Source: a virus. Taken from it: a DNA stretch of 31,098 nucleotides. Positions within the stretch are counted from its first letter, which is position 1; each line of letters begins with the position of its first letter. Of this stretch, positions 1 through 30,966 are shown piece by piece. The notes under the pieces are model-generated. The model was not told the DNA's origin. It searched no databases and was given only the letters and a program-made list of their open reading frames with translations. Location of the stretch: positions 1 to 31,098 of IMG/VR virus record IMGVR_UViG_3300047476_000933. One strand, given 5' to 3'. The translations under genes were made by a program, and so were the position numbers.

Positions 1-413
1 TCATTGCCTCCTCGGCCACCATAGCCGCCACTATCACCAACAAACCCGCCTCCGGCACCTCCAGCTGAAACTCCGCCGCCTTTTCCGCCAAAACCGCAAA
101 CGATATTGGCATTAATAAAATAACTATCTGTTCCGTTGTTGCCCGCAGAATTAACGGCACCGCCAAGGCCGCCAGTGCCAACTACTACTGTATAACTCTC
201 GCCAGGCACTACTGCAATATGATTTTTATATCCTAAGCCACCTCCGCCACCGCCTGCTCCATCAGCACCACCTCCGCCACCGCCTGCACCTACAGCAACA
301 ACACAAACTGTTTGAACACCATCTGGACAAACCCATGTATAGGTACCTGGAAAAGAGTAAACTGCTTCTCCTCTAGGTTTTAATAGCCATGGGTTGTGAA
401 GTGTAATGCTCAT
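1..413 (-). CDS. glycine-rich tail adhesin-like protein, partial (C-terminus beyond left edge)
   Basis: An open frame starts with ATG at 413 and runs off the left edge, giving about 137 residues. It begins MSITLHNPWLLKPRGEA. Near residues 19-45 it has a short beta segment (FPGTYTWVCPDGVQTV) followed by poly-glycine runs, the layout of the glycine-rich domain common in phage tail and fibre tip proteins. The rest is dense in Gly with scattered aromatic residues, recalling the glycine-rich loops of T-even gp38 adhesins; that comparison is an inference. The start codon overlaps the stop of the collagen-like gene upstream (ATGA at 410-413), which fixes the start and implies translational coupling. 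It ends the fibre operon seen here and is likely a tip or receptor-binding component. Confidence 0.8.
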   Translation of the reverse strand, partial: MSITLHNPWLLKPRGEAVYSFPGTYTWVCPDGVQTVCVVAVGAGGGGGGADGAGGGGGGLGYKNHIAVVPGESYTVVVGTGGLGGAVNSAGNNGTDSYFINANIVCGFGGKGGGVSAGGAGGGFVGDSGGYGGRGGN

Positions 414-1909
414 GTAAACGAATAATAGAAAGTAACTTTTAATCCTGCCGCTCCTGTGCCAGCAGAGTCAATGTCGATACCTATTTCAACATCGTCAGCA
501 ATACTTGTTGTAGCCAGTGTAGTAGGAGTTGCTGCGGTAACACTAGTCTTTTCGGACTGGTCAATTGATAATTTGTTTGCTCCAAGAATACTTGTACCGT
601 TTACATTTATATCAACTGTAACAAGCCCAGAAGACGAAGCAGTATTTAACGATGCCCTAGGTACTTGCGTTAAAGTCATTGCAAAAGGCGATCTAAATGT
701 TATCTTGGATGCACCAGTTGTTAACGGAGCAATTTCGTCGGATACTGCTACTATAAATGATATAGACGAATTTAATCCCCGGCTTCCCACATAACCTACA
801 GATCCAGTATATCCTACAGATCCTCTGGATCCAGTATATCCTACATTACCTTGTACACCCTGATTGCCGAGCTCAACCCACTGAGTCGAATTTCCGTCAT
901 TTAGATAATAATAGTTAATGCCTGTAGCTGAATCAACCCATAGATCTCCAACACTTGCTGATGTAGGAGCTATATTTGAGTATGTGTACTTTAAGGAACC
1001 TTCACTACCTGTATAACCTTCACTACCGGCATATCCTGTAGCGCCAATACTTCCGGTGTATCCAGTTGTACCTGCTGAACCAGCATAACCAATACCAGTT
1101 GATCCGGTGTATCCAGTTGTACCCGACGATCCAGTGTATCCAGTTGTACCCGAGGATCCAGTGTATCCATTGTTACCTGCTGATCCAGTGTATCCATTGT
1201 TACCTGCACTACCGGTATAACCTGTTGCTGATCCAGCAGACGCTACATTTGATAGGAAAGATACAGTATTTGAGTTAAAATCGATATTACCCGAGGTTGT
1301 ACTAAACGATACGCCACCGGTATTAGATGCTGATATTACTGCCCCGCCGAGATCAATTGAGTTGCTGGCCAGGTACAATGTACCAAACCTCATAGTCGGA
1401 GAGCCAATGTTAATTGTATTACTTGTTGTTGGTAATATCGAGTTATTAACTGTTAATGTACCAGCTACATATATATTCCCTGCTAATCCGGCACCTGCTG
1501 CCGAACCACTGTATCCTGTAACTTCTGAGGCTGAACTACCGGTGTAGCCAATTGATCCTACACTTCCAGTGTATCCAGGAGTACCCAAGCTACCGGTATA
1601 CCCTGCTCCCGCTGAACCGGTATATCCATTTGTACCTGCACTGCCTGTATATCCTGTGCCAGCACTTCCAGTGTATCCATTTGCACCGGCACTACCTGTG
1701 TATCCATTTGTACCTGCTGAACCGGTATATCCTGTGCCACCACCTGCACCGCTAGAATTATAAGCCAGTGAATTCCAGTTTGAAACACCGTCACCGACTT
1801 TTAATTTGCCGGTGTCGGTTTCTAAAGCCAATTCTCCTTCGGCTAAAATAGGGTTTGCTGCCGACCATTGAGCAGCAGTACCTCGTCTAAGTTGAATTTG
1901 AACAGCCAT
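410..1909 (-). CDS. collagen-like tail fibre protein with Mtd-type N-terminal domain
   Basis: This 499-residue protein has four visible parts. Residues 1-50 (IQLRRGTAAQW, then GELALETDTGKLKVGDG) match the small N-terminal domain of phage major tropism determinants and many fibre proteins. Residues about 55-135 and 235-305 are Gly-X-Y repeats built on GYTGSAG. Between them is a beta segment typical of marine phage structural proteins (RFGTLYLASN). A small domain at about 305-355 has GDLWVDSATG. Residues about 381-499 form a beta-rich C-terminal domain (ITFRSPFAMTL, then DDVEIGIDID) of a kind found at the ends of many phage fibre proteins, likely receptor binding. A T4-type late promoter box lies 22 bases upstream of the ATG. 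The product is probably a trimeric host-recognition fibre. Confidence 0.88.
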   Translation of the reverse strand: MAVQIQLRRGTAAQWSAANPILAEGELALETDTGKLKVGDGVSNWNSLAYNSSGAGGGTGYTGSAGTNGYTGSAGANGYTGSAGTGYTGSAGTNGYTGSAGAGYTGSLGTPGYTGSVGSIGYTGSSASEVTGYSGSAAGAGLAGNIYVAGTLTVNNSILPTTSNTINIGSPTMRFGTLYLASNSIDLGGAVISASNTGGVSFSTTSGNIDFNSNTVSFLSNVASAGSATGYTGSAGNNGYTGSAGNNGYTGSSGTTGYTGSSGTTGYTGSTGIGYAGSAGTTGYTGSIGATGYAGSEGYTGSEGSLKYTYSNIAPTSASVGDLWVDSATGINYYYLNDGNSTQWVELGNQGVQGNVGYTGSRGSVGYTGSVGYVGSRGLNSSISFIVAVSDEIAPLTTGASKITFRSPFAMTLTQVPRASLNTASSSGLVTVDINVNGTSILGANKLSIDQSEKTSVTAATPTTLATTSIADDVEIGIDIDSAGTGAAGLKVTFYYSFT

Positions 1910-1930
1910 GTTTAATTTTTCCGTATTCTA

Positions 1931-1938
1931 TATTTATA
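1931..1938 (-). promoter_or_regulatory. T4-type late promoter box (TATAAATA)
   Basis: The minus strand reads TATAAATA, an exact match to the T4 late promoter -10 element, 21 bases before the ATG at 1909. The expected start of transcription is near 1924-1925, leaving a leader of about 16 bases. The box contains the TAA stop of the upstream fibre gene. It is the only exact copy on the minus strand that I found. Confidence 0.65.
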
Positions 1939-2710
1939 TGGGTCCACCACCGTCAATTCCTGTAACTCCACCGTATACTGATGTGGGCGATCCTCCATCG
2001 ACATTAGTTAAACCTACACCACCGGTACCAGCACTACCTGTGTAACCTATTGCGCCCGTTGTACCAGCACTACCTGTGTACCCATCAACACCAGCACTAC
2101 CTGTATATCCGGCTCCAGTACTACCTGTGTAACCTATCCCTGCACTTCCGGTGTACCCATCAGCACCAGCACTACCTGTATATCCGGCTCCAGTACTACC
2201 TGTGTAACCTATTTCACCTTTGATGCCTGTGGCACCAGAAAGATCAGTTATATATGTATATACTGTTCCGTCCCAAAGATATAATTTAGCAGTATCGGTG
2301 TCATCAGTACTGCCAGTGTCAATAATAGCAAATTGTCCAGATGTAATACCTGTTGGGCTAGTATCAGCTAATAATAATGCTACACTAGCATAAGTTTTTG
2401 CTATGGTAAAACCTAATCCTGTATCACCTTTTTGTCCACGACTTCCGGTATAACCTTCACTGCCTGTGTAACCAATAGAACCTTGGCTTCCAGTATAACC
2501 TTCGCTGCCTGTGTAACCCACACCTTCACTACCGGTGTAACCTATGCTACCAGTATAACCAACAGAACCTTGGCTACCTACATAGCCAGGAGGACCCACT
2601 GGGATGTAAACCTGTCCTACCCATTTTATTCCATCCCAGGTATATGTTACTCCACTAGGACTTGTAAAACTGTCGCCAATTTGCGGTGAATCTGGAAAAT
2701 CTAATGCCAT
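1934..2710 (-). CDS. collagen-like tail fibre protein, short form
   Basis: The protein has 258 residues. The N-terminal 35 residues (MALDFPDSPQIGDSF, then GVTYTWDGIKWVG) are a compact module common at the start of T4-like cyanophage and pelagiphage fibre proteins. Gly-X-Y repeats with the GYTGS core fill residues about 45-95 and 165-235. A small insert between them (GQFAIIDTGSTDDTDTAKLYLWDG) resembles trimerisation or capping inserts. The C-terminus is short and Gly/Asp-rich (NVDGGSPTS, GIDGGGPI), so a globular receptor domain seems absent. No Shine-Dalgarno sequence is visible before the ATG. It lies between two other proteins with the same collagen motif and is likely an accessory fibre or connector. 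Confidence 0.82.
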   Translation of the reverse strand: MALDFPDSPQIGDSFTSPSGVTYTWDGIKWVGQVYIPVGPPGYVGSQGSVGYTGSIGYTGSEGVGYTGSEGYTGSQGSIGYTGSEGYTGSRGQKGDTGLGFTIAKTYASVALLLADTSPTGITSGQFAIIDTGSTDDTDTAKLYLWDGTVYTYITDLSGATGIKGEIGYTGSTGAGYTGSAGADGYTGSAGIGYTGSTGAGYTGSAGVDGYTGSAGTTGAIGYTGSAGTGGVGLTNVDGGSPTSVYGGVTGIDGGGPI

Positions 2711-2732
2711 AATTGATATTTATTGCTAGGGT

Positions 2733-4844
<2,112 letters not shown>

Positions 4845-4854
4845 TGCTTATACC

Positions 4855-7800
4855 TTAAACAGTTTTCATAAATTCAACAGCATCAAATGTATAGAAGCTG
4901 GCATCACCTTGGACACTGGTATAGTACAAGGTTAGTTTATCTCCGTCGCTTAGTCTTACATCAACTATACCGTCTGGATACGACTCGTTGCTCTTAATCC
5001 TTGCTCCGACGCTGAAGCTAACATTAGGCGGCGTGTAACCATCTTTAACCATCATGACATCAAACAGCTCCATATAAGAATAGTAGTCGTTGTGTAGTCT
5101 TACAGTGATTTTTACTGCTACTACATCTGCAGAACTTGCCTTCCAAATTTCGTGTTCTGTGCTATAAGCACTACGAACATAATATGGATTACCTTTAACA
5201 GTCTTAGTAGCACCAGAAATTGTAATTTGGCTGTTACCAACAGCCGGCAAACTTACCACACCTGTATTGGCTACAGTAACTTCAGCAGACTCATTCTTGA
5301 TTCTGTCTACTAGATTTGTACCATAGGTAACTTCTTTAGTAGTGGTGTTATAGTACAGAACACTGGCTGTTGTTGCATCGCCCCTCACCGGAGCAACATA
5401 GAAACTACTATCCTGATCGGCAATACCATTTAATTCAACCCCTGTGGCATTGATTATAATGGTATTGTTGCCTTGGTATTGGTGGCCTGCTGCATAACCA
5501 ATGGCAACTGATTCAGTGCCTTGGTTAACTTTACCAGCTTGATGACCAATAGCTGTTGCTCTTACACCTTGGTCAAAATTGCCAGCTTCGGTGCCTAGAG
5601 CAGTAGCATATACTCCCTGGCGTTGACCACCAGAATTAGTACCAACTGCAACCCCGTGTTCGCCTTGATCTTCATTACCTGCTATATAGCCTATAGCAAC
5701 TGCTTTATTGCCTTGTCTAATTTCTCCAGCAAAGCTACCTAAGCCAACTTGGAAATTGGCACCGGGCTCTTGTTCAAAGTCCCAGAATTGACCAATGTAT
5801 GTACCTTGTCCGTCGTCACCAGACTGGTAGGCTCCTTTTTGTACATAGACATAACCTGCAGGTTCAAATCTCCAGGTAACGGTGTTAGCAGTAATACTAG
5901 TAGCAGCGGGGCTAGTAATATTACCAGTCCAGGCTGTAGTTTGATAAGTGCTATCACTAAATGCAATATTGCCAACACCAGCTAGAGAACCAACTGTTAT
6001 TGGTCCTGCGCTAGGATCCAAGAACTGTAAATTAGTTGGAGTACTAATTATTAAGTTACCAGGTAAAGTTAATTCACCATTGACACCAAACGACCAAACA
6101 TTGTTGTTAGCAGTTATATAAACTGGAGGATTTGATCCGTTTGATACCTGTACATGACTATTTTCACCGCCCAAGAACAATATTGATCCGCTATTGTCCT
6201 GTGGGCCGCCGGCTCTAATATGAATATGATTTGGAGCAGTAGGATCAATGACCAAGTACGAATCACCAAACACATTAGTATCTGGACGAAGTTCCATGGT
6301 TGAATATCCGTAGCCATCACCGGAACTGTTAGCAACAAAGTTTATAGCACCGTTACCGCTTGTAAGATTACCTGCTAGAGTCAAAATGCCGTCACTGCCA
6401 TCAAACTTCCAACGATACGCACCTTCTTGTGGAGCAATATATAAGGAAGAAGCAGTTGAGGTATTCACATAGGTTTGGAGTTCAATATCTCCTTGAATGC
6501 CTGTGTAATTATTTGCAACATTACCAAGAACTACTCTTAAAAAGCTAGTGTTTAATTGGTCACCTATGTCTACATTTACAGGGCCTGCTAAAAGTCCAAC
6601 ACCATTTTCCTGGAATACGCCCTGTAACATTCCCCCTTTGATATTTCCCGGTACTGTTAGTTCACCATAACTATTAAAGTTCCACGATGAACCGCCTACA
6701 TTAATAACTACATCCGAATTGGCACTAGCGATCGAGACATTTGTTGTTCCGTTTTCAATTCTGTTTGGTATTCCGGCATCAACAGGACCCCAGGAACCAT
6801 CACCTAACAGTGCATTTGCAGGATTACCATCTAGGTTAATAGAGGCAATGTTACCAATACTGGCAATGTTAGCAAGTTGAATATTGGAAATATTCCTGCC
6901 GTCACCAATTAGGTATTGGGCAGAAATAGAACTAAATCCACTAATGCTTGGTGCTGGACTTGCATCTGCGCCCTGAATACCAGTGTTAACAAACAATATA
7001 CCAGTACTAACTGTATCTGTAGCAGTGATATTAGCTGTTGTTAAAGTATTTGTATCCGAAGTGTATGTTAAATCAACATCAGCTCTCACATACTGTCCTG
7101 TTGATCTCTGTTCAACAAATGTAGGATAGAAGACTGTGGTTAATCCATTGGTGTCAGTAATATCAACTAGTCCAGTAAATGCAATGTTGGCCAAACTGTT
7201 TGATAAGGAATCAATATTGCTTTGTAGATTAGCATCAGCAAGTGCTCGAGCATTGGCTTCATCGGTTATATAAGAGGTAGTAAATGCAGTAGTCTGTACA
7301 GTAGCATCTGGAAAGTATAGACTACCGTCTGTGTCAAATAGCCAAGATTTTAGTGTAGTCAGCGCATTAGTGTTAATAACAACTGAATTTGATGATGTAA
7401 TAGCAACATTTCCTGTAGTTGATGCTATTTCTGCGCCCTGGATATAAATGTTTTCACCAGTTGATACGGTAGGAAATGTTACAAAGGGATTTAATCCGCC
7501 AATTAATACCACCTCTGCGTTACCGTTAGTTAATCTGTCAAGAGTGCCAGTAAATGCAACATTGGCCAAACTGTTTGATAAGGAATCAATATTGCTTTGT
7601 AAATTACTGTCGGCAGAAACTCGAGCATTGGCCTCATCACTGACTGCCTGTATTCTTGCATTTACTTCAGCAGTAATATTGCTTTGTAAACTTGCATCGC
7701 TTGCAATTCGGGCATTGGCTTCATCGCTAACCGCTTGAACTCTTGCGTTTACTTCAGCTGTAATGTTACTTTGTAGTGAATTGTCAGCGGCCACACGAGC

Positions 7801-9489
7801 GTTAGCTTCATCACTAACTGCTTGGATACGAGCAGTAATTTCTGAACTAATGTTTGCTTGTAAATTAGCCTCGGCTGCGGTTGCACGGTTAATTTCAGCT
7901 GTTAAATTAGATCCGGTAGCACTACTGATATTACCAAGTGCAGACAACAAGTTACCATCAGCACTTTGGAAGGCTGTAACAATTTCAGACAAACTATCTA
8001 ATGCGGCCGGATCTGTATTGTTAAGTATGTTGTTTATCTGGCTCTGTAAATTAGATGTTGCAGTACCGCGAAGATTGGCTTCGTTGCTTACAGCGGTATT
8101 AACATAGGTAATATTGGCAAAATCAGGACCATTGGTAAACTGATTTAGATTAGTTGGTACACCAGATAGGTCACCGTATGCGCCACTTGTAGCCACATTG
8201 GCAAAGTTTGGTTTGTTTAAAACATTAGCCCATTGTATGTCACTATTTGATAAATCAATTGGTGCACTGGCCAATATTGTTCCCGAAGGCGATTCACTAA
8301 CAGATATGTTCCCGACATGTATTGATCCCGGTCCAACATATAACGAGTGCCAGCGGTTAGCTGAGTTACCCAAAAATCTGATATTATCAACATCTGGTAT
8401 AATATTAGAATTAAAGGCCAAGAAATCGGGTCTATTGATTAAGTCTGGGTAGCTACCAGATTTGGCTACTGTTGCCAAACTATTATCTAAAGCGGTAATG
8501 TTTGATTGTAGTGATGTGTCAGCACTGGCCCTGGTGTTTGCTTCTGCTGTAATATTGCTCTGTAAGCTAGTATCGGCAGCAATACGAGCATTAGCCTCGT
8601 CACTGACTGCCTGTATCCTTGCATTTACTTCTGCTGTAATGTTACTTTGCAACGATGTATCTGCGCTGGTACGAGCACTGGCTTCACTGTTGATCGCTGT
8701 AGTACGGGCATTAGTTTCAGCTGTGATATTGCTCTGTAGACTATTGTCTGCGTCAATACGAGCGTTTGCTTCTGCTGTAATGTTACTATTAATATCAGCT
8801 ACAGTAGATACTACTTCAGTAAAACTATCAAGTATATTAGCATCAAAGTTTGAAAGAATGTTGTTAATTTGATTTTGAAGGTTAGCATCGGCTGCACTAC
8901 GAACGCTGGCTTCGGTGGCAATATTGCTCTGTAAACTGGTGTCGGCAGCAATACGGGCATTGGCTTCGTTATTGATGTTAGTCTGTAATATTGTTTCGGC
9001 AGCAAAGGCTCTGGCAACTTCAGAATTCAAATTTGATTGTACTGCTGTTATCAATGTTTTTAGGTTAGCAGCCAATGCAGGATCGTTATCTAAGCTAACG
9101 GATATTTCTTCAAGAGTGTTTAGTCCCGGTGATGCATTTCCAACTAGCTGAGTCAATGATGCAGTGACATTTGCAGCCAATGCAGAAACATTAGAACTAA
9201 CACTTGTAATTAAATCTGTAATAGTAGAAGTAGTATTTGCAACTGTTGCGGCAACAATTGGTCCTAGGTTTCCTTCTAGGTAACCAGTGATCCAGGTCCT
9301 GGTTGTTGGTTCAGTAGGTACAATAACACCGCCAGGTGTAACGCCATCGTGAACACGAAGTGTTAATAGAGTAGTATCAAGAGTTATTTCTCCAATTGGC
9401 CCAATATAACTGCTGTTTACTTGTGTATTTCCACGCTTGAGCAGTATCTGTCTAGCGTCTAAGTCAATAGTTTGGTTATTAATAGTCAT
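4855..9489 (-). CDS. very long tail fibre protein with coiled-coil and YadA-head-like repeats
   Basis: The protein has 1544 residues. Residues about 10-60 (RQILLKRGNTQVN, then GEITLDTTLLTLRVHDG) are an Mtd-like N-terminal module. Residues about 100-350 and 510-680 are long alpha-helical heptad repeats of the type EANARIAADTSLQSNIT, predicted trimeric coiled coil. Several repeats around residues 375, 470 and 790 contain beta modules (NSANRWHSLYVG). Residues about 1245-1350 carry five copies of an AVAIGxxAG-type repeat (KAVAIGYIAGN, ATALGTEAGN, ESVAIGYAAGH), the signature of YadA/trimeric autotransporter head beta-rolls. The last 110 residues look globular. The start overlaps the previous stop (TAATG) and has GGAAG 6 bases upstream. 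It is likely the main host-contact fibre; no S74 chaperone tail is seen. Confidence 0.87.
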   Translation of the reverse strand: MTINNQTIDLDARQILLKRGNTQVNSSYIGPIGEITLDTTLLTLRVHDGVTPGGVIVPTEPTTRTWITGYLEGNLGPIVAATVANTTSTITDLITSVSSNVSALAANVTASLTQLVGNASPGLNTLEEISVSLDNDPALAANLKTLITAVQSNLNSEVARAFAAETILQTNINNEANARIAADTSLQSNIATEASVRSAADANLQNQINNILSNFDANILDSFTEVVSTVADINSNITAEANARIDADNSLQSNITAETNARTTAINSEASARTSADTSLQSNITAEVNARIQAVSDEANARIAADTSLQSNITAEANTRASADTSLQSNITALDNSLATVAKSGSYPDLINRPDFLAFNSNIIPDVDNIRFLGNSANRWHSLYVGPGSIHVGNISVSESPSGTILASAPIDLSNSDIQWANVLNKPNFANVATSGAYGDLSGVPTNLNQFTNGPDFANITYVNTAVSNEANLRGTATSNLQSQINNILNNTDPAALDSLSEIVTAFQSADGNLLSALGNISSATGSNLTAEINRATAAEANLQANISSEITARIQAVSDEANARVAADNSLQSNITAEVNARVQAVSDEANARIASDASLQSNITAEVNARIQAVSDEANARVSADSNLQSNIDSLSNSLANVAFTGTLDRLTNGNAEVVLIGGLNPFVTFPTVSTGENIYIQGAEIASTTGNVAITSSNSVVINTNALTTLKSWLFDTDGSLYFPDATVQTTAFTTSYITDEANARALADANLQSNIDSLSNSLANIAFTGLVDITDTNGLTTVFYPTFVEQRSTGQYVRADVDLTYTSDTNTLTTANITATDTVSTGILFVNTGIQGADASPAPSISGFSSISAQYLIGDGRNISNIQLANIASIGNIASINLDGNPANALLGDGSWGPVDAGIPNRIENGTTNVSIASANSDVVINVGGSSWNFNSYGELTVPGNIKGGMLQGVFQENGVGLLAGPVNVDIGDQLNTSFLRVVLGNVANNYTGIQGDIELQTYVNTSTASSLYIAPQEGAYRWKFDGSDGILTLAGNLTSGNGAINFVANSSGDGYGYSTMELRPDTNVFGDSYLVIDPTAPNHIHIRAGGPQDNSGSILFLGGENSHVQVSNGSNPPVYITANNNVWSFGVNGELTLPGNLIISTPTNLQFLDPSAGPITVGSLAGVGNIAFSDSTYQTTAWTGNITSPAATSITANTVTWRFEPAGYVYVQKGAYQSGDDGQGTYIGQFWDFEQEPGANFQVGLGSFAGEIRQGNKAVAIGYIAGNEDQGEHGVAVGTNSGGQRQGVYATALGTEAGNFDQGVRATAIGHQAGKVNQGTESVAIGYAAGHQYQGNNTIIINATGVELNGIADQDSSFYVAPVRGDATTASVLYYNTTTKEVTYGTNLVDRIKNESAEVTVANTGVVSLPAVGNSQITISGATKTVKGNPYYVRSAYSTEHEIWKASSADVVAVKITVRLHNDYYSYMELFDVMMVKDGYTPPNVSFSVGARIKSNESYPDGIVDVRLSDGDKLTLYYTSVQGDASFYTFDAVEFMKTV

Positions 9490-10008: not shown

Positions 10009-10380
10009 GTGGAAGAAATCGAACAGTTGCTCAAAAGATACCCCTTTATAACATACCTAATTTATGGGGGCAACGAATATATAGGTATAATACAAAACTC
10101 AGACGAGCAAATTACCACTATCTACGATTTTGGTAGCCTTCGGGTGCCCGAACAAAAGAAAAGATTCCTAGAATTAGGCGAACAGTGGTGGTGGGAAAGC
10201 AATAGGATAATTCCTATTAATGTTTTCCTAAAGCAAGAATGGGCTGAATTCAAGTTTTGCGTTAAAACTATGAACAGCAAAGATGTTGATATCCGTATGG
10301 GACCACAACTTAATCTTAAAGAAATGGCGGCTAAAAGACGTAAACGCCGCTCAATAACCTTAGTTCGTAAGATCAACTAA
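10009..10380 (+). CDS. conserved hypothetical protein, lone plus-strand gene
   Basis: The frame opens with GTG at 10009 and codes 123 residues (MEEIEQLLKRYPFITYLIYG at the start). No named domain is recognised. The body is beta-rich with a WWW cluster (residues 59-61) and a highly basic tail (AAKRRKRRSITLVRKIN) that could bind nucleic acid. No clear Shine-Dalgarno sequence precedes the GTG, and an in-frame stop lies at 9976, so the start cannot be far upstream. A late-type TATAAATA box is 31 bases upstream. The 3' end overlaps the minus-strand Pol III-like gene by 21 bases tail to tail. The general character resembles proteins I associate with T4-like marine phages, but the function is unknown. 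Confidence 0.75.
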   Translation: MEEIEQLLKRYPFITYLIYGGNEYIGIIQNSDEQITTIYDFGSLRVPEQKKRFLELGEQWWWESNRIIPINVFLKQEWAEFKFCVKTMNSKDVDIRMGPQLNLKEMAAKRRKRRSITLVRKIN

Positions 10381-10974
10381 GTTCATGTTAACTACCACAA
10401 GGTGTGCGTAGCCAACACTGTGACTCTTTTTAAAGTAGTAGCCATTATCGGCAGGTTTTTCCCAGACACTCTCAGCAACTTTGCTCCAAGGTAGACCTAT
10501 TAAGTGACGCTTGGCCGGTCTAATTACTGCCAACAACATGGCCAGTCTAGGAATACTATTAACTGCTTCGGGCATCTTAATTAGTGTGTCATAATGATTG
10601 CCGATGTGTATCATCTGACTGCAGAACTCTGGTTCGTAAAGTCTGTGCCAGGGCGGATCTCTAGAGAGTAGCTCATTTAAATGTTGCTCACTTCTAACCT
10701 GCTGATATAACCCAACATTAAGAAAATCGAGCTTGATATAACCACGATCTTCAGCTTGTCGATAATCTACTCCAGCTCGACCATTGAAAGGGTCCTGCGG
10801 TATATCAGTTACATAAATTCCAGTGTTGTGTGCAGTCGATTGCCCTTGGTCGTTGATAATACTGGCACCAATGTGTCGGATCTTTGACAGTATTTGCTGT
10901 CGGTCAGCAAAGTCGATGTCTACATCGCTGGTAAACTTTATAGACCTGCTGTTGTTAATATCTGTCGAGCCCAT
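10360..10974 (-). CDS. small protein with DNA polymerase III alpha-like catalytic motifs
   Basis: The protein has 204 residues; the ATG at 10974 follows GGAG at a good distance. Residues 16-25 read SDVDIDFADR, very close to the PDxDxDF motif that holds two catalytic aspartates in bacterial C-family polymerases (D401 and D403 in E. coli DnaE). Residues 49-53 (HNTGI) resemble the following HAAGV motif, and residues 75-85 (EDRGYIKLDFL) match the E-x-x-G-x-x-K-x-DFLGL motif that holds the third aspartate (D83 here). The order is as in DnaE, but the spacing is far shorter, and PHP, fingers and beta-binding domains are absent. The C-terminal 100 residues are not recognised. It could be a miniature polymerase relative, an inactive mimic or a coincidence of motifs. 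Confidence 0.75.
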   Translation of the reverse strand: MGSTDINNSRSIKFTSDVDIDFADRQQILSKIRHIGASIINDQGQSTAHNTGIYVTDIPQDPFNGRAGVDYRQAEDRGYIKLDFLNVGLYQQVRSEQHLNELLSRDPPWHRLYEPEFCSQMIHIGNHYDTLIKMPEAVNSIPRLAMLLAVIRPAKRHLIGLPWSKVAESVWEKPADNGYYFKKSHSVGYAHLVVVNMNLVDLTN

Positions 10975-11342
10975 TTTTGATCTCCACTTTCGTGTTTAAA
11001 TCTTGATTTCCAGAAATCTGGATCAATCCAACGAATGATTAGAGCTACTTGGTCTTCTGTCAAGTTGCTTAGAAACTCTACCCCAGAATCACAGTTAAAA
11101 ATAATCCAAGGACTAATCCTGCCAGTGCTAACATGATAACAAATTCTATTGCTGTTACCGTATCTGAAGTAATCACGGATACCATTTTTAAGATCTGGGT
11201 TGTCTTCAACATAGCCGTTAATTTCATTGATGCCTCTTTCTAGAGCATCCTGTACAGATTCTGTTCGTAAGTAAGTAAACAACCACTCTTCATAGAGCTT
11301 GTCTGATGTCCAGTAGTCTAGTTTTTTATTATTCCTTAACAA
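10938..11342 (-). pseudogene. 3' half of a frameshifted zinc-finger phage gene
   Basis: This 134-residue open frame starts LRNNKKLDYWTSDKLYEEW and ends DPDFWKSRFKHESG plus a short tail. Read upstream past its ATG in the same frame, the sequence continues YYTAFVKFGRYCQDIK and then CVNFVSFTNWLL, joining smoothly to LRNNKKLDYW. The upstream zinc-finger frame reads correctly as far as YDDF and then goes out of frame. Together the halves form one protein of about 240 residues, as I remember for the zinc-finger family in T4-like cyanophages. The annotated ATG is thus probably internal. The 3' end overlaps the next gene by 37 bases. Confidence 0.72.
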
Positions 11343-11662
11343 CCAATTAGTAAACGATACAAAGTTAACACATTTGATATCTTGGCAGTATCGACCAAAT
11401 TTAACAAAGGCAGTATAGTAACAAAATCGTCGTAGGTTTTTTCTTTGCTACTTTGAGTCATCTTATAGAACTCCAAGTAGGACATAAATCCCCACTGTAC
11501 ACCTTTTTCTTTTTCTTGTTGGTATCTTCTTTTCTTTTCGCAGAGATGGTTTACCAAAGTTGTTTCTTTAGTAAATCCTTTATTACAGTACTTACAAACA
11601 TACTTTGATTCTGTTACTGGCATAGTGTTAGCTTGGTATGCTTTTAGTATGTCTAAAATCAT
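11336..11662 (-). pseudogene. 5' half of a frameshifted zinc-finger phage gene
   Basis: This 108-residue frame carries a single C2HC-type zinc finger at residues 21-41 (C23, C26, H39, C41 in YVCKYCNKGF, then TLVNHLCEKKRR) followed by GVQWGFMSYLEFYKMTQ, a sequence I recognise from a conserved T4-like cyanophage family. After YDDF (around 11427) the frame turns into unrelated residues and stops. One extra T in the coding run TTTT (plus-strand A-run 11423-11426) restores the family sequence. The start overlaps the previous stop (ATGA at 11659-11662); M14 is an alternative start nearer the finger. The cause could be a sequencing or assembly indel in a homopolymer or a true mutation. Confidence 0.75.
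11423..11426 (-). other. likely frameshift site (one T missing from a homopolymer)
   Basis: The coding strand reads GAC GAT TTT GTT AC here. Adding one T gives GAT TTT TGT TAC TAT ACT GCC, that is D-F-C-Y-Y-T-A, which continues FVKFGRYC. The coding strand has no X-XXY-YYZ slippery heptamer at this point, so programmed -1 shifting is not favoured. Confidence 0.7.
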
Positions 11663-12640: not shown

Positions 12641-14101
12641 TTATAGGTATTCTACTTTCTCTATGGTAAAGGGGTAGTTAGCCTCTTTATAAAAATTCTT
12701 TCTCTGTGTCAGGTGTCTTTTGGCGAACTTGCACGACGAGGTAATATCCCAGATTTGGACAAAGTCCTTATCCTCTGCCTTACGGATTCCCCTTCCAATA
12801 CTTTGGATAACCCTAACAAAGCTCTTTCCGGGCTCCAGAAGAACCAAATTAAAAATCCTAGGGATATTAATACCCACAGCGGCCACACCGTAAGTCGCCA
12901 CAATAATCTTGTCACTAGATTCCGCCACTTCGTCATAATGCTCCTGTCTTGTTGTTCCTTTAGTGGCGCCGCTGACAAAAACTGCACGGTCACCGAGTCT
13001 TTCAACTAGAGCTTGGCCAGCGGCTACACGATCTACAAGGATCAGTGTATTTCCAGTGTCAACGATTCTTCGAACCATTTCTGCTATATGGTCTAAACGC
13101 TTACCGGACTCTAATAGAAATTTTAATTCACTTTGATAGTTACTGTACTCAGCATGATCAATTAACTGTAAAATATTGACATGACATTGAGCCAGCACGC
13201 CTTGCTCCTGTAATTCTCTAGCACTGAGTTTGCCGATTACGCGGCCAAGACTGCAATATAGAGCCATAAACTCATAACGCTCTTTGGGTATTGTTCCTGT
13301 CAGTCCCCAACGAATAGGAATTTGAGCCATTGGTCCTGTTAGCAAAGTTTTTAGTGCATCGGCTTTGGCCATGTGTACTTCGTCAACGATGACACAAACT
13401 ACACCTTCAATAAACTCTTGTATTGTGATCTCTGCTTCGTGGTTACGAGTATTCTTCAGCAGTACATTAAGACTTTGCCAAGTACAAATTGTATGCTGTC
13501 GATTAAATTCTTTGCGGTCACCATAGAAAACGCCAACATCCAGCCCTAAATTGACATAGTCTTTTTCAGTTTGTGTAACCAAACTCTTGTTAGGCACAAT
13601 AACAATACTACGACCGTATTCGCTAACTGAATTACTTAGAGCCGCAGTCATCAAAGTTTTGCCTGCGCCAGTGGCTACTTCTTGTATGCACTGTGGGTTC
13701 TCGAGAAACCTATTAATAACTTCAACTTGATAGTTACGCAACATAATTGGTTGCCCTGCCATTGGATGACCTTTAGGCCAAAGTGTGTCTTTAAAGGTAT
13801 CTTCTTCTATTTCGTTAAAGTCAAATTTAGTATTGTAGTCTCTAGTATCGTCGAGCTGTATGTCATAGCCTCTTTCTGCCAGATACTCTAGTATTTCGGG
13901 TAGCAGGTTGATGTAGGTACTACCGCTGAGCTGAAAGAAACTTACCTTTCCGTCCCAACGGCCCAGTCTGACCGCAGGCAAATATCTTGCACCTGGAATT
14001 TCAAACTTGTACTTGTTAACTAGCTCTTTACGATCAACTAGTTCAAGTCCTTTAATTTTTACATTAACTTCGTCGTTAATTTCTAAGATACATTCTCTCA
14101 T
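12641..14101 (-). CDS. uvsW: UvsW-type superfamily 2 DNA helicase
   Basis: The 486-residue protein has the SF2 set: Walker A TGAGKT at 144-149, Walker B DEVH at 240-243, motif III LTGT at 267-270 and motif VI QSIGRGIRK at about 433-441. The N-terminal 110 residues (ELVNKYKFEIPGARY, then RLGRWDGKVSFF) match the substrate-recognition domain of T4 UvsW, and the length is close to the T4 protein. UvsW unwinds R-loops and branched DNA, drives fork regression and Holliday-junction migration, and in T4 helps switch from origin-based to recombination-based replication. The start overlaps the previous stop (ATGA at 14098-14101), coupling it to the HARP-like protein. Confidence 0.95.
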   Translation of the reverse strand: MRECILEINDEVNVKIKGLELVDRKELVNKYKFEIPGARYLPAVRLGRWDGKVSFFQLSGSTYINLLPEILEYLAERGYDIQLDDTRDYNTKFDFNEIEEDTFKDTLWPKGHPMAGQPIMLRNYQVEVINRFLENPQCIQEVATGAGKTLMTAALSNSVSEYGRSIVIVPNKSLVTQTEKDYVNLGLDVGVFYGDRKEFNRQHTICTWQSLNVLLKNTRNHEAEITIQEFIEGVVCVIVDEVHMAKADALKTLLTGPMAQIPIRWGLTGTIPKERYEFMALYCSLGRVIGKLSARELQEQGVLAQCHVNILQLIDHAEYSNYQSELKFLLESGKRLDHIAEMVRRIVDTGNTLILVDRVAAGQALVERLGDRAVFVSGATKGTTRQEHYDEVAESSDKIIVATYGVAAVGINIPRIFNLVLLEPGKSFVRVIQSIGRGIRKAEDKDFVQIWDITSSCKFAKRHLTQRKNFYKEANYPFTIEKVEYL

Positions 14102-22539: not shown

Positions 22540-23676
22540 CTACTTGGGTATTATTTTACTAGTAAAGTCAAGACTTTGTCTACCTGGATTTGGTTCATAC
22601 CAGCCGTTTCCGGTATAGATGTTAAGAACATCTTGAAAGTATTCTTCGTACATTTGGGCCACACGGTCTAGGCTAAAGTTTTCCAAGGCCCAGGTGCGAC
22701 AGTTTTCGGGTTTGATTCGATCAATATTTTGGGCCGCCCAGACAAACTGTTCAAAGGTGCGACAGCGATACCCAGTTAACCCGTTGATATTATTTTCTGT
22801 AAATGATCCCCAGTCGGTACTAATAGTCGGGGTACCCGACATAAGCATTTCGATTTGAACCCCACCAAAAGGTTCTACATACATACTAGGCACAAAGGCT
22901 GCTCTAGCTCGACTCATTAATTGTTTTCGAGTTTTAATATCGGCATAGCCGACAAACTCTACATGGTCAGGAATCTTTTCGTAACCCATGTCTGCTAGAC
23001 TTCCTTGGCCAGCAATCTTTAATCGTGCTCCAATTTTTTCTGTTGCTTGGATTGCAACATGCACTCCTTTACCATCATATACTCTTCCAACAAACAAGAA
23101 ATAATCTTCTTTCTCTTCCGGTGTATATTCAAAATCATCAGGGTCAAAATAATTAGGGATAACAACATCATACCAATCCTGTTTACAACGGCCTACAGCT
23201 TCTAGCCCATAATAGGCATGATAGATAGCATAACTTTCAAAAATTTTAAATCTAGCAAAATGCCCACCAGCATAACCAATACCGGGTTCAACTACAATCA
23301 TATCAGGATGTGCATCACAAATTGGTTTATGACCCCAGCCCCAAAAAGGCAGTAGGAAATCGTTCTTCTGTTTTCGTTGGCCGATTTCTCTAATGGCATT
23401 TCTATAGAATGTTTGATATGCATGATCGTTTACATCGAACTTAAAGAAGTTTTTACGCCAATCGTAATTACCATAGGCTTTTTCTAAATCTTCGTTGCCG
23501 ATTACATCAACATGCTCGTTGCAGACAACATCACTGTCTGGGTGACCATAATGAATAATTTCGTGACCGCGGGCCTTCATCATCTTGCCAAACTTCCATA
23601 CTTTTTGGGTATAGGCACAGGCATTGTATTGTTTGTTAGTTACGGTATGGGGTAATCCTAGAATGTGAAATCTCAT
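22540..23676 (-). CDS. GT4-family glycosyltransferase
   Basis: The 378-residue protein has the C-terminal Rossmann domain of GT4 enzymes: [20 protein letters not shown] (192-211), KIAGQG (220-225), VEFVGYADI (239-247), and the nucleotide-sugar motif E268-x7-E276 in EPFGGVQIE, then TPTISTDWG. The N-terminal acceptor domain starts [14 protein letters not shown] and lacks a signal peptide, so it acts in the cytoplasm. Acceptor and sugar cannot be told from the sequence. Its start overlaps the DUF5672-like gene (ATGA at 23673-23676). It is one of six genes in a sugar-modifying cassette. Confidence 0.9.
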
Positions 23677-24443
23677 TGTTGTTCTTTGTTATATAAGATG
23701 CTTTCCAGTTTGGTTAATGTAGACACATAGTTTTTAGCCAAACACAGTTGTACAAATGTATGTAGCTGATCATCGTACCAATGATTAGGTTTTGGTGTTG
23801 AGTCTAAAAACCTCATTGTGTCATCTTCGTTGAAGTACAAAGGACTATTAAATGCCCCGTGGAAACCAAATGTTCGACCAGTAAAGTTATTCCATTCATG
23901 ACCAAATTGGTCAGCTAGTGCAATAGGTGCATAATTGATATTGTATTTGCTTCTCAAGTAACCAGAAAAACCTTGGCATATTACTGCATCTTCGTTGCTG
24001 GTTCTTTGCCCCGGAGAAGTTGCTATAGAGGTATCTTGTAATGCTGACAATAGTCTAAGGCTACGGAGAGAAAAGCCGCCGTTACCAACTCGTTCATCAG
24101 GAGCTATCCATTGAAACCTATCGGGCCAGACTGGACCAATGTAATCGTATTGATAAAAATCATTGTTCCAAAACTTACTGTTAACTGCCATACCGTCGTG
24201 CTGTATGACTAAAACAAAATCTGTTTTAATATGAGGGAATAGACCTTTAAGGCACAGTTGGTTATAGTCGTCTTTGTTGAACGCATCGGGCAATTGTACA
24301 AAACGGCCGTAGTCAACAACAGGCCGATCGCTAAAAACAACAACATCTTCCCACTCAGGTAAATTCTTTAAAGTTGTTTCGATGGAAAACTTCATCATAT
24401 CATGATTGTTATTTCCAGCAATGGCAACTGTTATCTTTTTCAT
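23673..24443 (-). CDS. DUF5672-type glycosyltransferase-like protein
   Basis: The protein has 256 residues. [20 protein letters not shown] (81-100), [17 protein letters not shown] (119-128) and NEDAVIC (150-156) are the hallmarks of the DUF5672 family, which has a GT-A-like fold; HDG at 82-84 would take the metal-binding role of a DxD motif. The N-terminal strand ([12 protein letters not shown]) fits a nucleotide-sugar-binding fold. The gene overlaps the genes on both sides by 4 bases. The family occurs in bacterial polysaccharide loci and large phages; the acceptor is unknown. Confidence 0.85.
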
Positions 24444-25267
24444 ATTTTCTTGTAAGAGTAGGTAAGACCTATGTCTCGATCAAACTTATTGAAATAAGTG
24501 TTAGCGGGATCAATCCAACTGAACAACCAGTTGCGAATGTCGCCCGGGTTGTGTTTTAATAGGGTTTCTTCAGGAAACTCCATTAGTACAACTCTCTTTT
24601 CAACTCTAGGATAGCAGTTAGCAATATGCATAGGTCCACTATTGACACCAATGAACTTAGACGAAGTTGCTATTTCTCGAGCCGACTGCCAATAATCGTA
24701 TTGCCCTCTGCGATCAATACTGTGACCACCCACAGGTTTGTCACCTTTAGAACCAATTTGCACTATTTGATAGTCACGATAATTTTCTAAGATTGCTGTG
24801 ATAACTTCGTCACTCAAATAACGCTCAGAATCCTCTCCTGAACTATATCTAATAGCAGGCTCGTTATCTCTAGTTCTATCACTGCCGCTGGTGTGTACTA
24901 CAATTTTATCTGGTTGTATCTTTTCGTCTTCGTAGATGTATAACCTTGGGTGACGAAGTACAATATTTTCAAGCCCAAAGTTTCGGCACATGTACTCAAT
25001 TTGACTATTAGCCACAAAAGACTTCATAGTATCAAAATAGTGTTGCGCCTGCTGAGGCACACGACAATCTGGTATCAGATTGATTGTGGGTAGTCCTTGA
25101 CTTTCTTGTTCTGTTTTAAATTCAACATAAGGATTGTGTTTAAAAGCCCAAATTGCAGAGTCTGTGATCACAGATTTCTCACCAGTGGCATGAAAAATAT
25201 TCTCAGGTACACCTGTAGTACAGACCTGGTCACCAATGTGACGGAAGTTGAAATGTAATTTAAACAT
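24440..25267 (-). CDS. GT9-like (heptosyltransferase-type) glycosyltransferase
   Basis: The 275-residue protein begins FNFRHIGDQVCTTGVPENI, like the G-D-x-x-x-x-x-P start of ADP-heptose transferases. IVVHTSGSDRTRDN (122-135), YQIVQIGSKGD (166-176) and KFIGVNSGPMHIANCYP (204-220) match the second domain, where the last motif is the GT9 signature G-x-x-S-G-x-x-H-x-A. The length is a little short of the family, and the N-terminal domain looks reduced. It overlaps the DUF5672-like gene by 4 bases and starts right after the methyltransferase stop. Confidence 0.8.
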   Translation of the reverse strand: MFKLHFNFRHIGDQVCTTGVPENIFHATGEKSVITDSAIWAFKHNPYVEFKTEQESQGLPTINLIPDCRVPQQAQHYFDTMKSFVANSQIEYMCRNFGLENIVLRHPRLYIYEDEKIQPDKIVVHTSGSDRTRDNEPAIRYSSGEDSERYLSDEVITAILENYRDYQIVQIGSKGDKPVGGHSIDRRGQYDYWQSAREIATSSKFIGVNSGPMHIANCYPRVEKRVVLMEFPEETLLKHNPGDIRNWLFSWIDPANTYFNKFDRDIGLTYSYKKI

Positions 25268-25852
25268 TTATAGTTTTTTGAGTATTATTTCAACAGCAGA
25301 ATCTGCAATGTCATCGTAGGTTTGATCGTACCTAGGTGCACGATACCTATAAGTAGCATCAAGCAATTCTATTTTTAAAGTTTTGATTTGATCCCCAAAG
25401 GACGCTAATAGGTTCATTAAATTAACTGACACCGGTGACCAAGATTCCTTTTTAAAAATAGTAAATGTGCACTTGTGGTCACCATTGAATGTAGAAGGAA
25501 ACTGTCCTTGCTCGTAGAGATCTTCGTCAGGAACCAAAATAACTAGGTGGCCGCCTGGCCGACAAATTCTAATCCAATTGCTTAATCCTTCATAGGGATT
25601 TAATAGATGCTCTAGACAATGACTACTGTGTACAAAGTCGTAGGTGTTGTCCTCAATGCCTTGCATAAGTTGGGCATCACCGTCATGCCAATCCCAGTCA
25701 CGAACTTCTTGAATGCCGGGGAAAAAGTCTTTAAAGTTTGACAGCCCGTCGTTGCCTGCACCAATGTCAATACCGCGACCTACAAAGTATCTTGTAGCAA
25801 AACGGATATCGTACATTCTCCTTACCATGGATTTACTAGTTTCTTTTGTCAT
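25268..25852 (-). CDS. class I SAM-dependent methyltransferase
   Basis: The 194-residue protein has motif I GIDIGAGNDG (27-36), an acidic strand (VRDWDWHDGDAQL), motif IV-like YDFVHSSHCLEHLLNPYEGL (about 80-99) and the post-motif RICRPGGHLVILVPDEDL. This is the Methyltransf_11 arrangement, typical of small-molecule, sugar or lipid methylation; no target-recognition domain for DNA is seen. AAGGG stands before the ATG at 25852. It lies in the middle of the glycan cassette, so a sugar methylation is the best guess. Confidence 0.85.
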   Translation of the reverse strand: MTKETSKSMVRRMYDIRFATRYFVGRGIDIGAGNDGLSNFKDFFPGIQEVRDWDWHDGDAQLMQGIEDNTYDFVHSSHCLEHLLNPYEGLSNWIRICRPGGHLVILVPDEDLYEQGQFPSTFNGDHKCTFTIFKKESWSPVSVNLMNLLASFGDQIKTLKIELLDATYRYRAPRYDQTYDDIADSAVEIILKKL

Positions 25853-25853
25853 G

Positions 25854-26447
25854 TTATTCCCTTGATAAAAGAATGTAGCCTTCTTGGTTGGTAAACTTTT
25901 TAACTGAATAGCCTTGATACTTGTTTATAAAATCTAGGTTCAGACCAAATTGATGTCTATCGGCCCATACGCCATTTTCAAAAGGATGGTCCTCGTAGAT
26001 CCTAAGGTCGTCGCAGATGATTATATCTTGTTTATCTTTTCTATTTTGATAAATGATATCCAATTCTTGCTCCAATGGAAAAGTAAGGTCGTCTTTTACA
26101 ACTTCTACAGATCCATTGCTTTTATCAAAGCCAAACAGGTGTGCATCTAAAAAGAAAACAACCGATGAGATATGTTGAATCTTAGACATCAAATTAGTTA
26201 AAAATTCAACAGATGACTCTTGCGTAATTGTAACACTGGCTTCTCTATCCTTAAATCGATTATTACAAAACTCGATCATTTGTGGATCAATGTCACAACT
26301 ATAGCATTCTGTAAAACCCACCTGCATGGCATAGTCTAAAGAATCGCCATAAAAACAACCTGTCTCAACAAATGTTTTGGTGTTTAGTAGTTCAACAACT
26401 TGATCGAGAGGTAAACAATCTCGACTGAATAATTTTAGTGTTCCCAT
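25854..26447 (-). CDS. SAM-dependent methyltransferase-like protein
   Basis: The protein has 197 residues. FVETGCFYGDSLDYAMQVGF (26-45) fits motif I (E-x-G-x-x-x-G-x-S), YSCDIDPQMIEFCNNRF matches the acidic motif II loop, and VVFFLDAHLF (about 97-106) resembles motif IV of FkbM/TylF-type enzymes. DIIICDDLRIYED may be a second metal- or substrate-binding strand. AAGGAAATT precedes the ATG. It starts 7 bases after the GT9-like stop. The usual role of such enzymes is O-methylation of sugars or natural products. Confidence 0.78.
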   Translation of the reverse strand: MGTLKLFSRDCLPLDQVVELLNTKTFVETGCFYGDSLDYAMQVGFTECYSCDIDPQMIEFCNNRFKDREASVTITQESSVEFLTNLMSKIQHISSVVFFLDAHLFGFDKSNGSVEVVKDDLTFPLEQELDIIYQNRKDKQDIIICDDLRIYEDHPFENGVWADRHQFGLNLDFINKYQGYSVKKFTNQEGYILLSRE

Positions 26448-26454
26448 AATTTCC

Positions 26455-27183
26455 TTAAATTATAAATTGGTCTGGTCGTCGGAAAAGACAAAAGTGACTG
26501 GCAGAATTTTTTTGGTTCTCTAGAAAAACTGGCTTCTTCAACGACTCGTTAATTGCATTTATTAGATTTTCATTACCGGCATAAAATTTTGCGGCTGCTA
26601 CAATGCTGGCTATTTCGAGCACAGTTTTTGTTTCATGCCAGGCAATACCAGTATTGTGTTGTTGCTCAAACAAATTGTATTCTTCCTGTGTTCCTAGAAA
26701 AACACCATGCTTGGCAATGTTTTGTTCTTTAAGGTAAAGATAAAAAGGATTAGGAGTTTCATTACCGGCCAAGTATCGCTTGGTCCTTGAAACTACAATT
26801 TTATTTTTAAAGTCTTGATTTGGTGTAACGGTAAGCCAAGGGCGATCTAATTCAGATTCGATATCCACTGAGCCTAAGTTAAACGCATGAAAAAAGCTAC
26901 CAGCTATTGACGATTTTATTTGAAATATTTTTGTGCGAAAAAGATCTAGGTTATAATCAATGTCTTGATCAGTATAAGTCTGCACACTGGTAATATAGGG
27001 TTGTTGCTCAAGCAGTCCAATAATTGATTCAGCAGATGCCTGTGTCAACTTGTACTCGTTTGCACCAGGATCAAAATCATTTAAACGGAGATATAAGTTG
27101 CCGCCGCCAAGATATCTAACTAGCGGAAGCGACCAAATAATATCTCCAAGTTTTCCCGAATGCAAAAATGATTTAATTGTCAT
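26455..27183 (-). CDS. GT9-like glycosyltransferase-related protein
   Basis: The 242-residue protein begins KSFLHSGKLGDIIWSLPLVR, close to the heptosyltransferase start G-D-x-x-x-x-x-P. Later segments KIVVSRTKRY, HGVFLGTQEEYNLFEQ and EIASIVAAAKFYAGNENLIN match the second domain's layout, with the final G-N-E-x-x-x-x-x-A replacing the S-G-x-x-H-x-A motif, so the donor-binding residues are changed. It may be inactive or use another donor. It opens the six-gene cassette and overlaps the 52-aa gene upstream by 11 bases. Confidence 0.75.
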   Translation of the reverse strand: MTIKSFLHSGKLGDIIWSLPLVRYLGGGNLYLRLNDFDPGANEYKLTQASAESIIGLLEQQPYITSVQTYTDQDIDYNLDLFRTKIFQIKSSIAGSFFHAFNLGSVDIESELDRPWLTVTPNQDFKNKIVVSRTKRYLAGNETPNPFYLYLKEQNIAKHGVFLGTQEEYNLFEQQHNTGIAWHETKTVLEIASIVAAAKFYAGNENLINAINESLKKPVFLENQKNSASHFCLFRRPDQFII

Positions 27184-29213: not shown

Positions 29214-29666
29214 TTAAATTGAGTAATCTTCCATCCCAGCGCATTTAAGTCTAACTAGATGCCCTTGCATAAAATTCTTACTTTCAAGACCTTTAAGGAT
29301 TCCTAAATACTTATTACGCAAGAGTGCTACGCTATTAATTATGGTTTCATAATCAATAACTTCATCTTCGCCATCCACATACTTTTCAGCATCGCGACTA
29401 GTTAAAGCTCTGTTGTATGCTTCTAGATATTTTTGGAAATGTTTGCGTCGAATCTTGCGTAACTGAATATTCAAATAGTTTAACACAGCTTCAATTTCTT
29501 GAAGCTGGTTAAACCTGTGTTCAGTTATACCAGGCAATTGCGCTATACTCTTTTCAACTTGTCCAGAAATACGACATTCTCTTTTGGCCGCTTCTAACTC
29601 GTTTTCGTAATAGGTTATAAAGTCTGGTATGTTGGCAATATCATCGACTACTCGATTATACCACAT
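29214..29666 (-). CDS. coiled-coil protein near uvsX, candidate UvsY-type mediator
   Basis: The 150-residue protein is largely alpha-helical and charged (DFITYYENELEAAKRECRIS, then NIQLRKIRRKHFQKYLEAYN), followed by the constrained segment RDAEKYVDGEDEVIDYETII and a C-terminal helix (RNKYLGILKGLESKNF). The size, the charge pattern and the position two genes after uvsX fit a UvsY-like recombination mediator, which loads UvsX onto gp32-coated single strands. I see no residue-level match strong enough to name it, and a different ssDNA-binding helper is possible. The ATG lies 3 bases before the stop of the acidic gene ends. Confidence 0.78.
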   Translation of the reverse strand: MWYNRVVDDIANIPDFITYYENELEAAKRECRISGQVEKSIAQLPGITEHRFNQLQEIEAVLNYLNIQLRKIRRKHFQKYLEAYNRALTSRDAEKYVDGEDEVIDYETIINSVALLRNKYLGILKGLESKNFMQGHLVRLKCAGMEDYSI

Positions 29667-29668
29667 AC

Positions 29669-29899
29669 TTACTCTTCATCGTAACCGTAATCGTCGTCTT
29701 CTTCGAAATCAACAGCATACTCTTTATAGGCACGGCTTAGACTAGAATCAGTGGCGCTGAACTCTTTAAGTTCATTGTCGCTGAGTAAATCAACCATGAC
29801 ACTCATCAAAGTATCTGCGGCTTCTTGCCGATCTTTTTGTGCAATGTATTGCTTGAGTATAGTATACACTTCGCTCAAGACATCAACTTCAACACTCAT
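29669..29899 (-). CDS. 76-aa acidic protein coupled to uvsX
   Basis: The 76-residue protein starts MSVEVDVLSEVYTILKQYIA and ends in a strongly acidic tail (DFEEDDDYGYDEE). The first 55 residues are helical (DRQEAADTLMSVMVDLLSDN). Small acidic genes of this kind sit beside uvsX in T4-like cyanophages as I recall; the acidic tail resembles that of DNA-mimic or SSB-type interaction tails. The start overlaps the uvsX stop (ATGA at 29896-29899), so it is made in step with the recombinase. Confidence 0.8.
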   Translation of the reverse strand: MSVEVDVLSEVYTILKQYIAQKDRQEAADTLMSVMVDLLSDNELKEFSATDSSLSRAYKEYAVDFEEDDDYGYDEE

Positions 29900-30966
29900 T
29901 CTGTGACTTCCTCTTCAGGTTGTGGAACAGCAGTTTCGTGGCGATGCGGATTAGCGGCGTAGTCCGCCATTACACGATCCAAAGAGCTATCTTCGTTTCG
30001 TTCCCATGCCTTACGGAACTGTTTAATTACCGTGCCATCTGCTAGAGTGTATTTAAGACTATTGCCTTCCTTCTGCAATAAACCTTTACCTTCAAACATG
30101 TCCACCAGACCGCTGTAGGGATTCATTCCAGATTCATAAGGGATCTTAACCTGCACACTTTCAAAAGGCTTGGCGTAACGAGTTTTCATGATCTTACAAG
30201 CGGCACGAATACCCTTTACCTCGCTGATCTTGTTTCCGTCTTCGTCCTCTTTAAGTTTGAGCTTACGCATGGCTACTACAATGGAACTTGCGTAGATAAA
30301 ACCTTGTCCACCTGAAATTTTGTCATCTGGATCAAACATATCTTGGCTAGCATAGGTATGGTTAGTTGCTACCAGCCCTAAGTTTAAATCACCAAACATG
30401 TTAACACAGTTACGAACCAGTGCTGTCAAGGCCTTAGGCTTACGGCCCATATCACCTTTTAAGTCGCCTGCTTCAAACTGATTAACATCTGTAGGAGTTA
30501 GCAACATGCCTAGACTGTCTAATACAAACAGAACTTTAGGACGACTATCTTCGGGTAGAGTTTTATATTCTTTGACAAACTCTGAAATCATCTTAGCCAC
30601 ATCATCGATCATGGCCATGTTTAACTTGAGTAACTTATCTTCCGAAGTGTCAACATCTAATGCATGTAACCATGCTTCGTCGAGTGCGTTCTCAGTGTCA
30701 ATTAAGATGACATAGATACCTTGCTTCTGTGCGTTCTTAACAAGATTGCCAGAGCAAATAAAACTTTTGCCTGCGCCCGACTCGCCGGCAAATACTGTTA
30801 CCTTACCCATCGGAACACCTTTGTTAAAGTCACCGCTGATAAGATAATTTAATGCGTAATTGTTAGTACTAATCCAGTCAGTAGGATCGTTAAACCCGAT
30901 GCTGACTCCGTCAATACTTTTTGTAATATTTTTTCGAAACTTGCTTAAATCAAATGGCTTGCCCAT
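29896..30966 (-). CDS. uvsX: UvsX/RecA-like recombinase
   Basis: The 356-residue protein has Walker A GESGAGKS at 61-68, the catalytic glutamate in IDTENAL (E92), Walker B VLFVLD at 145-150 and the RecA-type switch LVATNHTY at 198-205. The C-terminal 35 residues are acidic (PQPEEEVTE at the end), as in T4 UvsX. The enzyme forms filaments on single-stranded DNA and carries out strand exchange in phage recombination-dependent replication with gp32, UvsY and the UvsW helicase. AAGGAG precedes the ATG with a spacing of 7. A terminator hairpin separates it from the gp32-like gene. Confidence 0.96.
   Translation of the reverse strand: MGKPFDLSKFRKNITKSIDGVSIGFNDPTDWISTNNYALNYLISGDFNKGVPMGKVTVFAGESGAGKSFICSGNLVKNAQKQGIYVILIDTENALDEAWLHALDVDTSEDKLLKLNMAMIDDVAKMISEFVKEYKTLPEDSRPKVLFVLDSLGMLLTPTDVNQFEAGDLKGDMGRKPKALTALVRNCVNMFGDLNLGLVATNHTYASQDMFDPDDKISGGQGFIYASSIVVAMRKLKLKEDEDGNKISEVKGIRAACKIMKTRYAKPFESVQVKIPYESGMNPYSGLVDMFEGKGLLQKEGNSLKYTLADGTVIKQFRKAWERNEDSSLDRVMADYAANPHRHETAVPQPEEEVTE

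Follow-up and report, generated by a model that had tools for sequence, protein, structure and literature searches.

The stretch of viral DNA analysed here (the window: 31,098 nucleotides, IMG/VR record IMGVR_UViG_3300047476_000933) carries on its minus strand an ORF running from 10974 to 10360, stop included, which begins with ATG, has GGAG just 5' of that codon, and encodes a protein of 204 residues. A preliminary description had delimited this ORF accurately, leaving its strand unstated, and had read the product as a miniature relative of Pol III alpha. Profile comparison and predicted fold now point to the C-terminal half of a split minimal Pol III alpha (phrog_11778), comprising metal-binding palm strands and reduced fingers. 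Convergent with this gene is a plus-strand ORF for a 123-residue protein (10009..10380; phrog_11637, PHROG E 3.8e-32) that overlaps its 3' end by 21 bases and is a candidate partner; where there is space for it, 78 of 78 loci have a homologue of this neighbour in the same convergent position. On the other side, a conserved block leads to the polymerase half from a UvsW-type helicase gene (12641..14101, minus strand). The order UvsW, phrog_11279, phrog_11758, phrog_11058, polymerase half and convergent phrog_11637 is common to the window and to phages GAP32 and Cassandra, the latter two having one extra gene after UvsW; in isolated phages a primase and a DnaB-type helicase then follow the block. 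The phrog_11058 gene immediately upstream (10938-11662, minus strand) is broken in the window into two overlapping ORFs (11336-11662 and 10938-11342); in 77 of 77 relatives its frame is uninterrupted, and the break reflects either a genuine frameshift or a mistake in assembly. At two loci (L008:1496 and L010:5001) an in-frame stop stands two codons into the frame before the polymerase half, so that translation must start later there than the aligned start.

Elsewhere in the window, UvsX (29896..30966, minus strand; phrog_97, E 2.3e-68) assigns the contig to the T4-type systems of replication and recombination and is accompanied by UvsY (29214-29666), so that the T4-type UvsX, UvsY and UvsW recombination genes are all present. 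Just downstream of the replication block (410-9489, minus strand) lie very large ORFs of 499, 258, 703 and 1544 residues, the first three with collagen-like repeats, which probably encode fibre or virion surface proteins. A further run of minus-strand ORFs (22540-27183) resembles, by eye, glycosyltransferase, methyltransferase and related sugar-modification genes.

Counterparts of the three catalytic aspartates of E. coli DnaE (D401, D403 and D555, correctly named as such in the preliminary description) occur in order in the 204-residue protein as D17, D19 and D83. The minus-strand segment 10900..10929 encodes SDVDIDFADR (residues 16-25), the counterpart of DnaE PDFDVDF, in which D17, D19 and D21 correspond to D401, D403 and D405. 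HNTGI (residues 49-53; 10816..10830, minus strand) is the counterpart of HAGGV, and EDRGYIKLDFL (residues 75-85; 10720..10752, minus strand) that of EYAGLVKFDFL, with K81 equivalent to K553 and D83 to D555. The residue positions originally assigned to these motifs and to the four aspartates agree exactly with the translation, as does the reported compression of their spacing to about 65 residues: D19 and D83 are 64 residues apart, compared with 152 between D403 and D555 in E. coli DnaE. Conservation of D17, D19, D21 and D83, proposed earlier as a check, is complete, these residues being identical in 125 of 125 relatives; H49, G52, G78, K81, L85, R152, P153, K155 and H185 are likewise invariant. 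A dN/dS of ~0.065 was obtained for the gene relative to its nearest relative, a 90%-identical copy. The Gly-Ser nucleotide-binding motif is absent from the 204-residue protein and in relatives sits in a separate protein.

Single-protein searches of Pfam and PDB sequences with the 204-residue protein gave no match; when the PDB was searched with a profile, DnaE came up at the right motifs but short of significance. Within PHROGs, residues 14-200 match phrog_11778, annotated as DNA polymerase (E 9.4e-55; positions 5-191 of 197 in the profile); a match to phrog_405, the family of full-length phage DnaE, runs through the stretch FKKSHSVGYAHL (residues 165-199; E 1.1e-4). Comparison by hhalign of a profile of 56 relatives with a profile of 11 DnaE cores aligned residues 49-200 with an E-value of 3.6e-11, pairing HNTGI with HAGGV, KLDFL with KFDFL, IRPAK with FRPG and FKKSHS with FNKSHS, and a second alignment placed DVDIDF on DFDVDF of the PDFDVDF motif. 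In these comparisons residues 115-200 fall on DnaE finger segments Ec 618-641 and 753-766 (GYGFNKSHSAAYAL); FKKSHSVGY (residues 181-189; 10408..10434, minus strand) is the counterpart of the finger motif FNKSHSAAY (Ec 756-764). The earlier statement that all other DnaE domains are missing must accordingly be revised, both for these finger segments and for the N-terminal part of the palm, which in relatives is encoded by another gene. Four separate segment profiles match successive parts of E. coli DnaE in the expected order (411-418, 541-558, 618-641 and 753-766), the second being the best DnaE match of the segment containing EDRGYIKLDFL. In a shuffle test only the fourth was significant alone, scoring above all shuffles; the scores of the first three were weak, being reached by 15 to 25 of 1000 shuffles. 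Against a lone E. coli DnaE sequence in place of a profile, hhalign gave no alignment with the family, since any one alignment is interrupted by the deletions of thumb and fingers. Judged by these sequence comparisons, the homology of the protein to DnaE is demonstrated far beyond chance; the homologous region starts a little ahead of the D401/D403 strand, lacks the thumb and has shortened fingers.

In an AlphaFold2 model of the protein (pLDDT 90.9, pTM 0.79), strands 18-22 and 82-86 carry the aspartates or adjoin them. Pol III alpha accounts for each of the model's eight top-ranked PDB matches, 7pu7 leading with a probability of 0.99; the Foldseek E-values against the PDB are modest (best 3.7e-3 and 7.6e-2). 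In BFVD, the named leading matches are phage DnaE-type polymerases. This fold search, also suggested beforehand, returned no unrelated fold among its leading PDB matches, and the proposed kinship to the C-family palm is upheld by the profile comparison, the predicted fold and the invariance of the named aspartates.

The missing portion of the palm is found in relatives as a second family of ~175 residues (phrog_11127, E 1.4e-43; PF07733, E 2.7e-11), in which GRGS, the Gly-Ser nucleotide-binding motif, is invariant. One member, a 172-residue gene of phage CBB annotated as DNA polymerase III alpha, was termed truncated by its authors (PMC5259590). Relatives of this N-terminal half align by hhalign to DnaE up to residue 396 (E 6.8e-8), and against the DnaE core profile the match (E 1.2e-12) ends 4 columns before the DFDVDF motif. 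The C-terminal half takes up at DnaE ~398, and the two families thus lie back to back without overlap, the split point falling between FERFLN and PDFDVDF of DnaE. Counterparts of the thumb, PHP, clamp-binding and OB domains were found in neither the 204-residue protein nor the ~175-residue N-terminal half of its relatives. No ORF fusing the two halves was found among 127 profile matches to the C-terminal half and 50 to the N-terminal half, true full-length DnaE controls aside. The N-terminal model is weaker (pLDDT 72.8), and its eight best PDB matches are also Pol III alpha. Cyanobacteria likewise divide DnaE between two distant genes, which are equipped with split inteins. Their split, however, lies far downstream of the catalytic aspartates, whereas that of the phages precedes them; split inteins were considered here and rejected, since the N-terminal half ends at ~396 and the C-terminal half begins within ~15 residues of the DxD. 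The split ends leave no room for an intein segment, and joining by protein splicing is therefore not expected.

By tblastn the C-terminal half occurs in 63 phage records at 32-46% identity, mostly jumbo phages (including RaK2, 121Q, PBECO4, GAP32, CBB, PA5oct and Atu_ph07), and it was matched at 393 places in IMG/VR. The window copy reaches at most ~46% identity to cultured phages (Atu_ph07, Phosso). No match was found in plasmids, and the four among the GTDB matches listed, all in MAG contigs, are read as misbinned phage DNA and so as no sign of a cellular lineage. The distribution of the N-terminal half is nearly the same: comparison by hand placed 58 of the 60 listed phage records for the C-terminal half among the 60 listed for the N-terminal half. 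Of the two exceptions on each side, one per side was checked, and in both the second half was recovered by profile: the N-terminal half in Slicko01 and the C-terminal half in RAS14. The N-terminal half led to four IMG/VR contigs longer than 200 kb, each of which also carries the C-terminal half, and the N-terminal half is present in a 250-kb contig (G001) bearing a 75%-identical relative of the window protein. Contigs of up to 132 kb often carry one half, as would be expected of two widely separated genes. The distance is 34 kb in GAP32 and, by the linear coordinates of its record, ~180 kb in Atu_ph07. With a separation of at least 34 kb in the phages measured, the halves are not co-transcribed; in isolated phages the N-terminal gene lies near the clamp loader. 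Alishewanella phage Slicko01 (L086, OQ508956.1) has a complete genome of 141 kb, in which the two halves occur together with a match to family B polymerase that extends over two frames. Being complete at that size it is non-jumbo, and it gives a case of the two genes outside the jumbo phages.

A family B polymerase was found in three large relatives (G001, G012 and G015) and in eight phage records, and was not found in the partial contig G011; with that one exception, the large and complete genomes checked each combine a family B polymerase with the two halves. The window, a 31-kb fragment, shows neither the N-terminal gene nor, among the ORFs scanned, a family B polymerase. At six family B loci examined the catalytic motifs DxxSLYP and DTDS are intact, and a degenerate family B polymerase, with the split enzyme serving as replicase, was rejected on this basis.

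Overall, these sequence comparisons and structural models lead us to regard the 204-residue protein, with a probability of about 0.78, as the C-terminal half, the one with the catalytic-metal site, of a minimal family C DNA polymerase (Pol III alpha) split in two, a predicted two-subunit accessory enzyme. The two halves would pair non-covalently to form one active site, in which the N-terminal half may hold the triphosphate and the C-terminal half the Mg2+ and the primer 3' end. As the genes lie far apart and are not co-transcribed, this pairing is something we infer. Since the thumb and clamp-binding region are missing, such an enzyme would be a short-range polymerase of low processivity, acting next to the family B replicase in a putative accessory role such as repair, gap filling or primer extension during recombination-dependent replication. 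Against a split polymerase, deletion of the thumb would leave little to hold the duplex. We advance only tentatively, at well below even odds, a more specific proposal: an obligate two-protein active site, formed with no covalent joining, would make up an unusually small family C polymerase of ~375 residues in total, maintained beyond jumbo phages as a dedicated second polymerase beside the family B replicase, possibly with phrog_11637 as a third part.

The most serious alternative is that the pair descends from DnaE and has no polymerase activity, serving a structural or regulatory purpose, such as that of a DNA-binding replisome scaffold. Loss of the thumb, PHP, OB and clamp-binding regions would suit such a role, as would the presence of a family B polymerase with its catalytic motifs, and the polymerase activity of the pair is itself a prediction. 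A scaffold, however, would not require the catalytic aspartates, K81 and the GRGS of the N-terminal half to remain strictly invariant down to ~32% identity, and we judge this explanation unlikely. Far less credible still is the supposition of the preliminary description that the protein is a self-contained mini-polymerase or nucleotidyltransferase, working without the N-terminal half: its recognition of family C kinship was sound, and the confident model of the C-terminal half alone and the distance between the genes might favour independence, but the part of the palm that binds nucleotide is missing from the protein, and its nearly unfailing company of an exactly complementary N-terminal half argues for joint action, the protein being one half of a split enzyme. 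Chance resemblance of short acidic motifs without DnaE kinship, to which the failure of single-protein Pfam and PDB sequence searches might have lent some colour, is refuted by the profile-profile match, the confinement of fold matches to Pol III alpha and the invariance of the motifs.

The split polymerase favoured here has a published precedent. Iyer et al. 2021 (PMC7824862) reported that jumbo phages of group 2.2 add a phage-specific minimal Pol III alpha to their family B polymerase, divided between two proteins, an N-terminal one that binds NTP and a C-terminal one that binds Mg and template; they considered that the halves likely reassemble into an enzyme, which might serve one strand or repair, and proposed the split minimal Pol III as a model of an ancestral replicase. 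The window shares with that system the same C-terminal family (phrog_11778) and a UvsX/UvsY/UvsW background, and its relatives share the widely separated genes for nucleotide-binding and Mg/template-binding proteins and the companion family B polymerase. It differs in being a fragment in which the N-terminal half and family B polymerase are out of view, and in its low identity (at most ~46%) to cultured phages. The protein is thus one more example of a C-terminal family that, together with its split, was published in 2021 (PMC7824862). An arrangement that the preliminary description had thought unusual in a T4-like phage, a family C relative beside a B-family polymerase, is real in relatives and had already been described in that paper. 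Relative to E. coli DnaE and phrog_405, the likeness extends to the equivalents of D401, D403, D555 and K553, the HAGG and FNKSHS counterparts and the fold; the differences are the distribution over two genes and the absence of the thumb (~433-510), PHP, most of the fingers, and the clamp- and tau-binding regions. No experimental study of the split phage enzyme was found in the literature searched, and the terms DNA polymerase and Pol III are both absent from a 2026 review of jumbo phages.

The discovery value of the window alone is limited, since family and split were published in 2021. What is added here is the abutting split point, the invariance of residues, fold models of both halves, the co-occurrence counts, the absence of fusions, the 141-kb non-jumbo case and the invariant convergent neighbour gene. 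With the split point defined, and with hosts in culture for the E. coli phages 121Q and PBECO4, which carry both genes, the proposal is directly testable. Should an active enzyme arise from the two halves, it would show how little of Pol III alpha suffices for template-directed synthesis; such an enzyme, if real, would also account for the retention of a family C polymerase alongside one of family B in some T4-type phages.
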